Both the position numbers and the translations under genes were made by a program. Below, piece by piece: positions 35,460 through 40,691 of a stretch of DNA of 40,691 nt. The notes under the pieces are model-generated. The model made no database searches, was not told the origin of the DNA, and saw only the letters and a list, made by a program, of their open reading frames with translations. The stretch's first letter is position 1. Every line of letters begins with the position of its first letter. The DNA is from Deltaproteobacteria bacterium (lineage in GTDB: Bacteria; Desulfobacterota; GWC2-55-46), in NCBI GenBank assembly GCA_016235365.1, contig JACRLF010000037.1, positions 1 through 40,691 on the forward strand, given 5' to 3'.

Positions 35460-36635
35460 ATGAACATCCACGAGTACCAGGCGAAGCAGATACTCGCCAA
35501 GTACGGGGTCGTTGTGCCAAAGGGCAAGATCGCCTTTACGCCGGCCGAGGCCGAGGAGGCCTCGAACGAGCTCTTTAGGGAAGGCAACAGCGTATGCGTC
35601 GTAAAGGCGCAGATACACGCGGGCGGCAGGGGCAAGGCCGGCGGCGTCAAGCTCGCAAAGAGCAGGGAAGAGGCGGGCGCGTTCGCAAAGGAGCTTTTGG
35701 GCAAGGTGCTCGTGACCCATCAGACCGGGCCGGCGGGCAAGGAGGTCAAGAAGGTATTGATAGAGGAGGGCTGCCAGATAGCAAAGGAGCTCTACCTCGG
35801 GCTCGTGGTCGACAGGGCCACGCACAGGGTCGTGGTGATGGTCTCTACCGAGGGCGGTGTGGAGATAGAGGAAGTGGCCGCCAGGAGCCCGGAGAAGATA
35901 CTGAAGGAGTTCATCGACCCGGCCGTGGGCCTTATCCCGTTCCAGGCGCGCAAGCTCGTCTTCGGGCTCGGGCTCGACAAGGGGCTCGTAAACAAGGCGG
36001 TCAAGTTCATGACCGGGCTCTATAACGCCTTCGTAAGCTCGGACTGCTCCATGGCGGAGATAAACCCGCTCGTCATCACGAAGTCCGGCGATATCATCGC
36101 CCTTGACGCCAAGATGTCCTTTGACGACAACAGCCTCTTCAGGCACAAGGACATCGAGGGGATGAGGGACCTCGACGAGGAAGACCCGAAGGAGGTTGCG
36201 GCGTCGCGCTACAACCTGAACTACGTCTCCCTTGACGGCGACATAGGCTGCATGGTCAACGGCGCGGGGCTCGCCATGGCGACGATGGACATGATAAAGC
36301 TCTCGGGGGGCAGCCCGGCCAACTTCCTGGACGTGGGCGGCGGGGCGAACAAGGAGCAGGTGACGGCGGCCTTCAAGATAATAATGTCGGACCCGAACGT
36401 CAAGGCCATGCTCGTGAACATCTTCGGCGGCATCATGAGGTGCGACATCATCGCCGAGGGCATCATCGCCGCCGCGAAGGACGTGGGCATCAAGGCGCCG
36501 CTCGTGGTAAGGCTCCAGGGCACGAACGTCGAGCAGGGCAGGAAACTCCTTGCGGACTCCGGGCTCAACATATTGACGGCCGAGCGGATGGACGAGGCGG
36601 CCGAGAAGGCCGTTGCGGCCTCAAAGAAGGCTTAG
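35460..36635 (+). CDS. sucC: Succinate-CoA ligase beta subunit
   Basis: [22 protein letters not shown]...[18 protein letters not shown]...[16 protein letters not shown]. Confidence 0.96.
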
Positions 36636-36650
36636 CGCGCCGCGCCGTGA

Positions 36651-36765
36651 ACATGCATAGCGAGCGCATTCTCCGCAGCTTGCTGCGGGGTCAAGCGAGC
36701 GAATCGGATATGGATACTTCCTTACATGTCGAAGATTCCCCGCGGCTTGCCGCGGGGAGCTTCAA
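36651..36765. repeat. Palindromic repeat family R2, intergenic copy between sucC and sucD
   Basis: GCATAGCGAGCGCATTCTCCGCAGCTTGCTGCGGGG...CCCCGCGGCTTGCCGCGGGG; aligns with 11816-11926. Confidence 0.85.
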
Positions 36766-36907
36766 CCACCCCGGAGCAAGCTCCGCTGTATCCGAAGGAA
36801 TTTACGTTAATGGCTTGCCAAGCCCAAGCTTCGGGGAAGTATACCAGAAGGAAACATTAAATTACCTTAAATTACAAAAAATGAAAAACCCGCGGAGGTT
36901 TTGACCG

Positions 36908-37783
36908 ATGAGCGTATTGGTTGACAGGGACACAAGGGTTATCTGCCAGGGCATAACCGGCGAGCAGGGCACGTTCCATACCCGGCAGATGGTCGCCTAC
37001 GGCACGAAGATGGTCGGCGGCGTGACCCCCGGCAAGGGCGGCGCCGAGGTGGACGGCATACCGGTATTCGACACGGTGGAAGGGGCTGTAAAGGGGACGG
37101 GCGCTAACGCCTCCGTCATATACGTCCCGGCCCCGTTCGCGGCCGACGCGATAATGGAGGCCGTGGACGCCGGCATCGGGCTCGTCATCTGCATAACCGA
37201 GGGCATACCGGTGCTCGACATGGTCAAGGTCAGGAGGTTCATGGAGGGCAAACCCTCAAGGCTCGTAGGCCCCAACTGCCCTGGCGTCATAACCCCGGGG
37301 CAGTGCAAGATAGGGATAATGCCGGGCCATATACACAAACCGGGCGCGGTCGGCGTCGTTTCAAGGAGCGGGACCCTCACCTACGAGGCGGTGGACCAGC
37401 TCACGAGGCTCGGGCTCGGCCAGTCGACCTGCGTCGGCATCGGCGGGGACCCGGTGAACGGCACCAACTTCATCGACGTCCTCAAGCTCTTCCAGGAAGA
37501 CCCCGGCACCGAGGCCATCGTGATGATAGGCGAGATAGGCGGGGGCGCCGAGGAGGAGGCCGCCCTTTACATAAGAAAGAACGTGACAAAGCCGGTAGTG
37601 GGCTATATAGCCGGGGTCACGGCGCCCAAGGGTAAGAGGATGGGGCACGCCGGGGCCATCATATCCGGCGGCAAGGGCACGGCGGATGAGAAGATGGAGG
37701 CGATGGCCGTGGCCGGCGTCAGGGTCACCAGGAGCACGGCCGAGATAGGAAAGACGGTCATGGAGGCCCTCCAGAGGGCGTGA
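36908..37783 (+). CDS. sucD: Succinate-CoA ligase alpha subunit
   Basis: [31 protein letters not shown]...[26 protein letters not shown]...[21 protein letters not shown]. Confidence 0.96.
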
Positions 37784-37787
37784 CTAT

Positions 37788-37917
37788 CAGGCTGTTGAAA
37801 AAGTCCATCTACTGCGTTGTCATCGTCGCTCTGCTACGGCGTATGGACAAAATACGCCTCATTCCTCGCTCCTCGACGCCTCCCACGCCAAGTGGCGTGG
37901 GTCGGGAGCTTTTTGAA
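37788..37917. repeat. Dispersed palindromic repeat family R1, copy C (right tip missing; contains extra 9-bp-stem hairpin)
   Basis: CAGGCTGTTGAAAAAG...CTTTTTGAACA; interior GCGTATGGACAAAATACGCCTCATTCCTCGCTCCTCGAC matches copies A and B; extra CCCACGCCA-AG-TGGCGTGGG. Confidence 0.88.
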
Positions 37918-37922
37918 CATGC

Positions 37923-38072
37923 ATGGGGTGCAGCATCTGCGTGGACTTCTGCCCGACCAACGTGCTGGAGATGAGGGGCACGGTAGTGGCCGTGAAGGAC
38001 CTTGCGGCCTGCACCAGGTGCCAGCTCTGCGATCTCAGGTGCCCTGACTTCGCGATACAGGTCTTCGACTGA
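37923..38072 (+). pseudogene. korD: 2-oxoglutarate:ferredoxin oxidoreductase delta (ferredoxin) subunit, 5'-truncated
   Basis: Frame reads TGA-ACA-TGC-ATG: (C)MGCSICVDFCPTNVLEMRGTVVAVKDLAACTRCQLCDLRCPDFAIQVFD*; normal N-terminus absent, replaced by repeat R1 copy C. Confidence 0.85.
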
Positions 38073-38199
38073 GGGGATTGGTTGTGTTAGCGGACGTTTC
38101 CAGCCCAGGTCGCGGGGGGGCGCATCCGAAGGAAACCGGACACCTTGTGTTGTGTCAAGCCGAGGGCTATTCGAAGGAAACGCTAAAGGGGGTTTTGAA

Positions 38200-39330
38200 A
38201 TGGCTGAGAAGAAGAAAAAGCTCCTACAGGGCAATGAGGCTTGCGTTGAAGGGGCTCTCTACGCCGGCTGCAGGTTCTACGCCGGCTACCCCATAACGCC
38301 TTCGACCGAGATAGCCGAGGGCATGAGCGTAAGGCTCCCGAAGATCGGCGGCAAGTTCATACAGATGGAGGACGAGATAGGCGGGATAGCCGCGGCCATA
38401 GGGGGCTCTCTTGCCGGGCTCAAGTCCCTTACCGCCACGTCCGGGCCGGGTTTCTCGCTCAAGCAGGAGTGCCTGGGGTACGCCTGTCTGACCGAGATAC
38501 CCCTTGTCATAGTGAACGTGATGAGGGGAGGCCCGTCCACGGGATATCCGACCGGGCCGTCGCAGGCCGACATCATGCAGGCCAAGTGGGGGACGCACGG
38601 AGACCATCCCGCCATAGCCCTTACCCCGTCTTACGTGCAGGAGATACTCTCGGAGACCGTCAGGGCGTTCAACCTTTCAGAGAAGTACAGGACCCCGGTC
38701 ATAGTGCTCTATGACGAGATAATAGGGCATATGAGGGAGCCGATTACGATACCCGCGCCAGGGGATCTCGAGGTGGTGGACAGGGCCAAGCCGACGTGTC
38801 CGCCCGAGGAGTACTTCCCATACGACGACAGGTACGACGTGGCCCCTCTCGCGCCGTTCGGGAGCGGCTACAGGTTCCATGTGACCGGGCTCAACCACAA
38901 GAAAGACGGTTTCCCGACGAACGACTCGAAGATCATCCGCGAGAACAACGAGCGGATAATGAGGAAGGTGGACAAGAACCTCGAAGAGATATGGAAGAAC
39001 GAGGAGACATATCTCGACGACGCCGAGATAGCCGTCTTTGCCATAGGATCGACCGCGAGGTCGGCCAGGTTCGCGGTAAACGAGGCGCGGAAGGCCGGCA
39101 TCAAGGCGGGTCTATTGAGGCCGCTTACGATATGGCCGTTCCCGGACAAAGCTGTCAAGGAGCTTGCCAAAAAGGTGAAGGTAATAATAGTGCCGGAGCT
39201 CAACCTCGGCCAGATGGTCAATGAGGTCGAGCGCTGCTCCAAGAACGCCGAGGTCATCGGCATCCACAGGGTGGACGGCGAGCCGATAAACCCGGCCCAG
39301 ATACTCGATGTCATAAAGAAGCATAAGTAA
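38200..39330 (+). CDS. korA: 2-oxoglutarate:ferredoxin oxidoreductase alpha subunit
   Basis: GNEACVEGALYAGCRFYAGYPITPSTEIAEGM...FIQMEDEIGGIAAAIGGSLAGLKSLTATSGPGFSLKQE; start at internal ATG. Confidence 0.95.
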   Translation: MAEKKKKLLQGNEACVEGALYAGCRFYAGYPITPSTEIAEGMSVRLPKIGGKFIQMEDEIGGIAAAIGGSLAGLKSLTATSGPGFSLKQECLGYACLTEIPLVIVNVMRGGPSTGYPTGPSQADIMQAKWGTHGDHPAIALTPSYVQEILSETVRAFNLSEKYRTPVIVLYDEIIGHMREPITIPAPGDLEVVDRAKPTCPPEEYFPYDDRYDVAPLAPFGSGYRFHVTGLNHKKDGFPTNDSKIIRENNERIMRKVDKNLEEIWKNEETYLDDAEIAVFAIGSTARSARFAVNEARKAGIKAGLLRPLTIWPFPDKAVKELAKKVKVIIVPELNLGQMVNEVERCSKNAEVIGIHRVDGEPINPAQILDVIKKHK

Positions 39331-39391: not shown

Positions 39392-40255
39392 ATGTCGTCG
39401 CCCGCCGTAACGGAAAAAAAGCAGAAGGTCAGCGTCCCGTTCGATTACAATAAATACCTGAGGCCGAACAAGCTGCCGCACATATGGTGCCCCGGTTGCG
39501 GCCACGGCATAGTCCTCAAGGCGATGCTCAGGGCCATACACGACAGCGGCATCGAGAAGGACAACATCTGCATGGTGTCCGGCATAGGGTGCTCGAGCAG
39601 GACCCCCGGCTATGTGGACTTCAATACGCTCCATACCCTGCACGGCAGGGCCATCGCCTTCGCCACCGGGATAAAGCTTGCAAAGCCCGAGCTCAAGGTC
39701 ATAGTCGTCACCGGGGACGGAGACGCCCTCGCCATCGGGGGCAACCACTTCATCCACGTCTGCCGCAGGAATATCGACATGACGATACTCGTCATGACGA
39801 ACGCGACCTACGGGATGACCGGGGGGCAGTACTCTCCGACCACCCCGATGGACTCCATATCCACGACGAGCCGCTACGGCAACATAGAGCCTCCGTTCGA
39901 CGCCTGCGGCATGGCGAAGGCCGCCGGGGCATCGTTCGTGGCCAGGGGCACGGCCTACCATACCATCGAGCTTGAGAAGACCATACTCGAGGCCATAGAG
40001 CACAAGGGGACGTCGGTAGTTGACATAATAGACGCCTGCCCGACGTACTTCGGAAGGGCGAACAAATACAAGAGCGCGAGCCAGATGATGGAGACGATAG
40101 AGAAGGACGGCACCGTCTCCGTGAAACAGGCCGACAAGCTGCCCCCGGAGAAGATCGAGGGCAAGGCATTAAGGGGCGTGCTCCACAAGATAGACAGGCC
40201 CGAGTACTGCGAGCAGTACTCGAATTTGATAGTTGAAAAAGCGAAGGGGAAATAG
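39392..40255 (+). CDS. korB: 2-oxoglutarate:ferredoxin oxidoreductase beta subunit (TPP-binding)
   Basis: LPHIWCPGCGHGIVLKAMLRAI...VSGIGCSSRTPGYVDFNTLHTLHGRAIAFATGIKLA...VVTGDGDALAIGGNH. Confidence 0.95.
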   Translation: MSSPAVTEKKQKVSVPFDYNKYLRPNKLPHIWCPGCGHGIVLKAMLRAIHDSGIEKDNICMVSGIGCSSRTPGYVDFNTLHTLHGRAIAFATGIKLAKPELKVIVVTGDGDALAIGGNHFIHVCRRNIDMTILVMTNATYGMTGGQYSPTTPMDSISTTSRYGNIEPPFDACGMAKAAGASFVARGTAYHTIELEKTILEAIEHKGTSVVDIIDACPTYFGRANKYKSASQMMETIEKDGTVSVKQADKLPPEKIEGKALRGVLHKIDRPEYCEQYSNLIVEKAKGK

Positions 40256-40290
40256 CCTGGCGTCCACCCCATTCAAGGAGGGTTTCAGAG

Positions 40291-40691
40291 ATGAGCGGCA
40301 GATATGAGATACGTTTCAGCGGCTCCGGCGGCCAGGGCATGATACTGGCCGGGATAATCATGGCGGAGGCCGCTTCAATCTACGGCGACAAGAACGCGGT
40401 GCAGAGCCAGTCCTACGGCCCGGAATCCAGGGGCGGGGCGAGCAAGGCCGAGGTCATAATAAGCGAACAGCCGATAGACTACCCGAAGGCCACGGCGATA
40501 GACTGCATGCTGGCCATGACCCAGGAGGCGTGTACCAAGTACTACTACGACATCAAGGACGGCGGCATCCTCCTCGTGGACTCCGAAGAGGTCAGGGAGG
40601 TCCCTCAGGGCAAATTCAAGGTCATAAAATTCCCGATAACCGGCACGGCGAGGGAATATCTCGGCAAGACCATCGTCGCCAACATCATCTC
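40291..40691 (+). CDS. korC: 2-oxoglutarate:ferredoxin oxidoreductase gamma subunit (runs off window)
   Basis: MSGRYEIRFSGSGGQGMILAGIIMAEAASIYGDKNAVQSQSYGPESRGGASKAEVIIS...; open to end of window. Confidence 0.92.
   Translation, partial: MSGRYEIRFSGSGGQGMILAGIIMAEAASIYGDKNAVQSQSYGPESRGGASKAEVIISEQPIDYPKATAIDCMLAMTQEACTKYYYDIKDGGILLVDSEEVREVPQGKFKVIKFPITGTAREYLGKTIVANII

Follow-up and report, generated by a model that had tools for sequence, protein, structure and literature searches.

In two-cluster ferredoxins, the ligands of cluster I are the first three cysteines of motif I together with the final cysteine of motif II. Among described systems, the closest to the locus reported here is the KorD/OorD delta subunit of 2-oxoglutarate:ferredoxin (acceptor) oxidoreductase, represented by the family models NF007205 and NF042987 and by a solved relative (8ys5 chain D). 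Relatives were collected via korA and by whole-genome search. Their KorD proteins are about 67-68 amino acids long in the same class and about 58-83 further away, and share the N-terminal pattern MxEAAKKLPRIxINEKLCKGCSICVDFCPTNVLEM... In an alignment of 30 relatives Cys19, Lys20 and the other seven cluster cysteines are invariant, and the first-strand positions nearly so. The genes are preceded by GGAGG-type ribosome sites at the usual distance before the start, with sucD upstream.

A korD match was found in 50 of the 58 relatives; seven of the eight without one also lack a korA match, and in the eighth the contig start cuts korA. Among relatives with readable context, korD accompanies korA with no clear exception. 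Two short candidates were rejected, one being cut by a contig end (L039 in G013) and the other carrying frame errors (L041 2787-2945 and G027:C3, L192); neither is of the short MGCSIC form described below. The frame errors in the latter are probably sequencing errors.

Gene context

The window, that is, the whole stretch of 40,691 nt analysed, is contig C99 of the draft genome G000 (144 contigs, 1.99 Mb, 88.5% estimated completeness). G001, the other genome of the same genus, belongs to a different species and is the sole same-genus comparison. At the right end of the window lie sucC, sucD, the korD frame, korA, korB and the start of korC (Table 1), and the linkage of the korD frame to korA, korB and korC is that of a KorD/OorD delta gene. 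The sucD stop (TGA, 37781-37783) touches the left tip of a repeat, R1; in G001 the corresponding letters are GCG-TAA. Over about 39,870-40,691 (end of korB, korC) the identity of the window to G001 reaches 100%, versus ~94% further left; either the species have recently exchanged DNA or the assembly has merged variants.

Table 1. Features at the right end of the window
Feature	Position	Strand	Remarks
sucD (succinyl-CoA ligase alpha)	36908..37783	+	Intact, 291 aa; 93.7% nucleotide identity to G001
Repeat R1, left part (plain-form positions 1-145)	37784..37919	+	CTATCAGGCTGTTGAAAAAG...GGGAGCTTTTTGAACA; right terminal section missing
GGGAG	37904..37908	+	Only nearby Shine-Dalgarno-like string; inside R1, 14 nt before ATG
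TGCAT	37920..37924	+	Probable first five bases of nested R2 (elsewhere TGCATAGCGAGCG...); alignment with G001 korD, CTCTGCAAGGGGTGC
korD remnant	37923..38072	+	49 aa; ATG apparently from repeat AT plus korD G, then native codons 21-68
korA (2-oxoacid:ferredoxin oxidoreductase alpha)	38200..39330	+	Intact; PF01855/PF17147; NF006412 above cut-off
korB (beta)	39392..40255	+	Intact; PF02775; best match NF007207, below its cut-off
korC (gamma)	40291..40691	+	Runs off contig; best match NF006323

The korD junction

An earlier sequence-only reading had given the korD frame as TTT TGA ACA TGC ATG GGG TGC AGC ATC TGC, and direct reading agrees, with TTT at 37911-13, TGA at 37914-16, ACA at 37917-19, TGC at 37920-22 and the ATG at 37923. 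No start codon lies between the in-frame TGA and the TGC. After the ATG the frame is MGCSICVDFCPTNVLEMRGTVVAVKDLAACTRCQLCDLRCPDFAIQVFD, up to the stop TGA at 38070-38072, and the sequence across the R1/R2-korD junction (within 37,850-38,000) is GAACATGCATGGGGTGC. Translation yields the 49-amino acid product that had been proposed. Its motif II has all four cysteines but its motif I only three, so that it does not contain two complete C-x2-C-x2-C-x3-C motifs. The GGGAG is indeed the nearest candidate ribosome site.

The korD sequence proper begins at GGGGTGC: five bases into a nested repeat, R2, the contig jumps to the final base of codon 20 (Lys20). Nothing of what separates the sucD stop from korD codon 20 in G001 is present on the contig, so that the Shine-Dalgarno sequence and codons 1-20 are missing on the korD side. 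TGCA is common to korD (CTCTGCAAGGGG) and R2 (CATGCATAGCG; also given as ACATGCATAGCG), and the next base, T, is that of R2. The TGC and the AT of the ATG would be explained at least as well as the first five bases of R2. The first cysteine codon, described earlier as retained, is therefore present as a TGC, while the origin of the first four bases of TGCAT, in R2 or in korD, appears ambiguous. The in-frame ATG would have arisen by accident, from the AT of the repeat and the last G of the Lys20 codon.

From codon 21 onward, korD is 99.3% identical to the G001 gene, with no amino acid change and one synonymous change in 48 codons; decay was not seen. By comparison, dS relative to G001 is 0.15-0.24 in the neighbouring sucC, sucD and korA. 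A very recent loss of korD would also show an undecayed remnant, and the low divergence is not unique in the operon, since korB and korC likewise differ unusually little from G001. NF007205 is the best family model both for the remnant (43.6 bits) and for the full G001 protein (51.8 bits), its cut-off being 93. We take the 49-codon frame to be the remainder of an ordinary korD, encoding the two-cluster ferredoxin (delta) of 2-oxoglutarate:ferredoxin oxidoreductase.

No sigma-70 promoter and no plus-strand terminator were found at the junction, and no known RNA families within 36600-38300. Folded as RNA, R1 plus the junction exceeds shuffled sequences in stability only slightly (z -1.6); immediately ahead of the break there is a strong hairpin. 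Literature searches returned nothing bearing on the korD/R1 case.

The draft genome was searched for an intact korD, and no second copy was found, nor was an orphan korD 5' end. A query with the 5' region of G001 korD matched only the remnant and chance-level hits, so the missing piece, whose presence elsewhere in the assembly would have pointed to a mis-join, was not located. The short MGCSIC form, which would speak against a lost 5' end if it were shared, was not found in any readable relative. That korD lacks its 5' end here, as first proposed, is thus upheld by the full gene in all readable relatives and by the single copy in this genome. The nearest other delta gene, on C35, was rejected as a second korD, being a complete porD-type gene with its own operon. 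An R1-like repeat lies between the gamma and delta genes of this second 2-oxoacid:ferredoxin oxidoreductase operon (C35 5111-5382, L183), and neither gene is clipped.

Repeats R1 and R2

The R1 tip (CTATCAGG) starts at 37784, directly after the sucD stop. R1 matches 44 places in the genome, and its 16-nt tip (up to 1 mismatch) occurs 226 times in 2.0 Mb versus 0 for the reversed control; the 226 tip copies form a very large family of short inverted-tip elements, the tips being CAGGYTGTT(G/C)AAAAA. The plain R1 measures 182 nt in its long form and about 172 nt with the short loop; the long form reads TA-n-CAGGCTGTTGAAAAAG ... GGGAGCTTTTTGAACA-GCCTGAACGGACGCGAGGGTTTTTCAACAACCTG-n-TA. Plain copies run TA-n-CAGGCTGTTGAAAAAG ... 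GTTTTTCAACAACCTG-n-TA, with inverted tips and TA at both ends.

Six other R1 copies have R2 (TGCATAGCGAGCG... about 110 nt ...GGGGAGCTTCAACA) nested precisely where GAACA ends, with the remainder of R1 beyond it. The window copy matches the R1+R2 composite through GAACATGCAT, where it ends without the right terminal repeat, and then jumps to korD. The loss of the right tip noted earlier holds relative to the plain form (...GAACAGCCTG), but these six copies leave at GAACA too, because R2 sits there and the rest of R1 comes ~110 nt later. Nested R2 has an AACA-like repeat at both ends, as if inserted at GAACA. R2 (AACATGCATAGCGAGCG..., with hairpins of the CCGCAGCTTGCTGCGG type) is also found alone between sucC and sucD (window 36648-36770).

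R1-like elements occupy the same sucD-korD spacer in the related genera G011 and G009, where korD is whole, and a divergent R1-like element can be seen by eye in the G001 spacer, where korD is intact. It is thus normal for this spacer to hold an element, but not for korD to be clipped.

The assembly of R1 in this genome is irregular and unreliable. One copy contains a 12-N gap (C28 4240-4500), partial tandem copies occur at C95 616-794 (L024), C41 1229-1404 (L025) and C85 8614-8813 (L033), and contigs C18, C69, C80 and C110 end in or at R1 (contig ends surveyed in part), C69 doing so at R1 position 142. The copies with an N gap or partial tandem duplication are likely scaffold joins or slippage. 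The window R1 is identical (132/132) to the copy on C18, which ends inside R1.

Of the R1 copies examined, just two were found to run into identified genes, namely the window copy and one on C90 (G000:C90:3516-3660; L022, L185). In the latter, the last 10 residues of a peptidyl-prolyl isomerase (PPIase), RVEMKVRVIE in G001, where the protein is whole, are replaced by repeat-encoded residues. Both junctions leave R1 at plain-form 144-145, where R1-only and R1+R2 copies part; neither is more than 5 nt from the R1/R2 branch point. The korD break lies inside an imperfect overlap, TGCATAGCGAGC / TGCAAGGGGTGC (8/12 equal, counted by hand), and the C90 junction has no overlap.

Predicted properties of the 49-amino acid product

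In the AlphaFold2 model of the full G001 KorD, the mean pLDDT is 88.7 and strands span 11-14 and 64-67. For the 49-amino acid form the mean pLDDT was 79.9, the first strand was absent and the last strand was lost, the last-block pLDDT falling from 92 to 66. Since Cys19 is lost, cluster I is predicted to be left with three ligands. Perhaps the repeat has been adopted as a new start region, yielding a functional 49-amino acid protein, a changed ferredoxin whose first cluster has three cysteines (3Fe-4S or open-site). The in-frame ATG at the junction, remaining codons that are almost perfectly conserved relative to G001, and a complete cluster II motif would fit such a protein. Against these stand the invariance of Cys19 in all 30 aligned relatives and the near-invariance of the first-strand positions, the lost strand and reduced confidence of the model, the 14 nt between GGGAG and the ATG, and the absence of this form from the relatives. 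In our judgement a functional short ferredoxin is accordingly very unlikely. Slighter still is the chance that the nested repeat supplied a start codon and that this lineage runs its 2-oxoglutarate:ferredoxin oxidoreductase with a 49-amino acid, three-cysteine-first-cluster subunit.

Origin of the junction

The clipped korD is an ordinary broken junction, produced either by an assembly error or by a deletion of recent date; it does not represent a novel type of protein. That the repeat had simply inserted into korD was rejected, for the missing codons and ribosome site are not found across the repeat, where there is only the sucD stop. Collapse of two R1 copies, or a mis-join inside the repeat, was rejected by logic, as neither can remove single-copy korD DNA; the junction itself must therefore be wrong or real. 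Of what the sequence-only reading had offered (an insertion, a deletion next to it, or a faulty join across the repeat), there survive the deletion on the one hand and an imprecise join or trimming at the branch point on the other. We favour, with low certainty (probability about 0.53), an imprecise join at the R1/R2 branch point, which would place the error in the contig and not in the cell. In the cell, a complete R1+R2 element would be followed by an entire korD; the jump into korD codon 20 would come from the trimming or imprecise joining of short contigs that stop at the branch point. This is suggested by the full length of korD wherever it is readable, next to korA in every clear context, by the genome having no other korD or orphan 5' end, and by a remnant that shows no decay beside its more diverged neighbours. 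It is also suggested by the poor assembly of R1 here (N gap, contig ends, partial tandems), by the exit of both gene-clipping copies at the branch point, near which C69 ends, by the identity of the window and C18 copies, as expected of a shared graph segment, and by the position of the break in an imperfect overlap. On the other side, a de Bruijn assembler normally needs junction-spanning reads, so that gap joining or end trimming must be assumed. The N runs could be masking, partial tandem copies can be real slippage products, the large-scale order of sucD then korD is correct, the PPIase case lacks a junction overlap, and korB and korC share the unusual closeness to G001. A biological hotspot could also account for the shared branch-point exits and the overlap at the break.

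A real recent deletion in the cell, running from inside R1/R2 beside sucD to korD codon 20, is a serious contender of somewhat lower probability. It would have taken away the remainder of R2, R1's right end, intergenic DNA, the ribosome site and 20 codons. korD would then be a fresh pseudogene, and the enzyme would have to work with a different ferredoxin or with no delta subunit at all. Deletions adjoining repeats are a common occurrence. In keeping with such an event, repeat collapse cannot explain the junction, which reads or a gap-joining step must have made; the same spacer carries R1-like elements in related genera (and visibly in G001) with korD intact; the pattern recurs where an R1 copy replaces the PPIase end; TGCA on both sides of the break fits a microhomology-assisted deletion; and the strong hairpin lies just before it. 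A deletion sits less easily with the absence of any decay, the constant company of korD and korA in relatives and the location of both breakpoints at an assembly branch point, and a plain microhomology product would read TGCAAGGGG, not TGCATGGGG. The imprecise join is favoured over the deletion, although sequence alone cannot separate the two. If the mis-join is correct, the left flank would continue into AGCGAGCG and the right flank into upstream korD sequence.

The consequences are mainly for annotation: it would be a mistake to record the 49-amino acid protein as a short KorD variant, or to conclude from this contig alone that the pathway has no delta subunit. The R1-bounded junctions in this genome (korD, and PPIase on C90) need read support. 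Were the deletion real, it would provide a natural test of whether the enzyme needs its delta subunit.

Comparison with known systems

Both likely explanations of the clipped korD, a core metabolic gene, are of known kinds. As in repeat-associated mis-joins of short-read assemblies, the locus has a high-copy repeat, an N gap, contig ends and a breakpoint at a branch point; it differs from them in the absence of unique gene DNA, for which repeat collapse would not suffice. R1 resembles MITE-like or palindromic intergenic repeats, which are short and non-coding, in its inverted tips, TA at both ends, many copies and nested R2; the window copy departs from them in having no right end. In comparison with KorD/OorD, the window remnant is without the first 20 residues, Cys19 and the native ribosome site, but it matches that system in its sequence from codon 21 on, in its place in a sucCD-korDABC cluster and in its cluster II motif.
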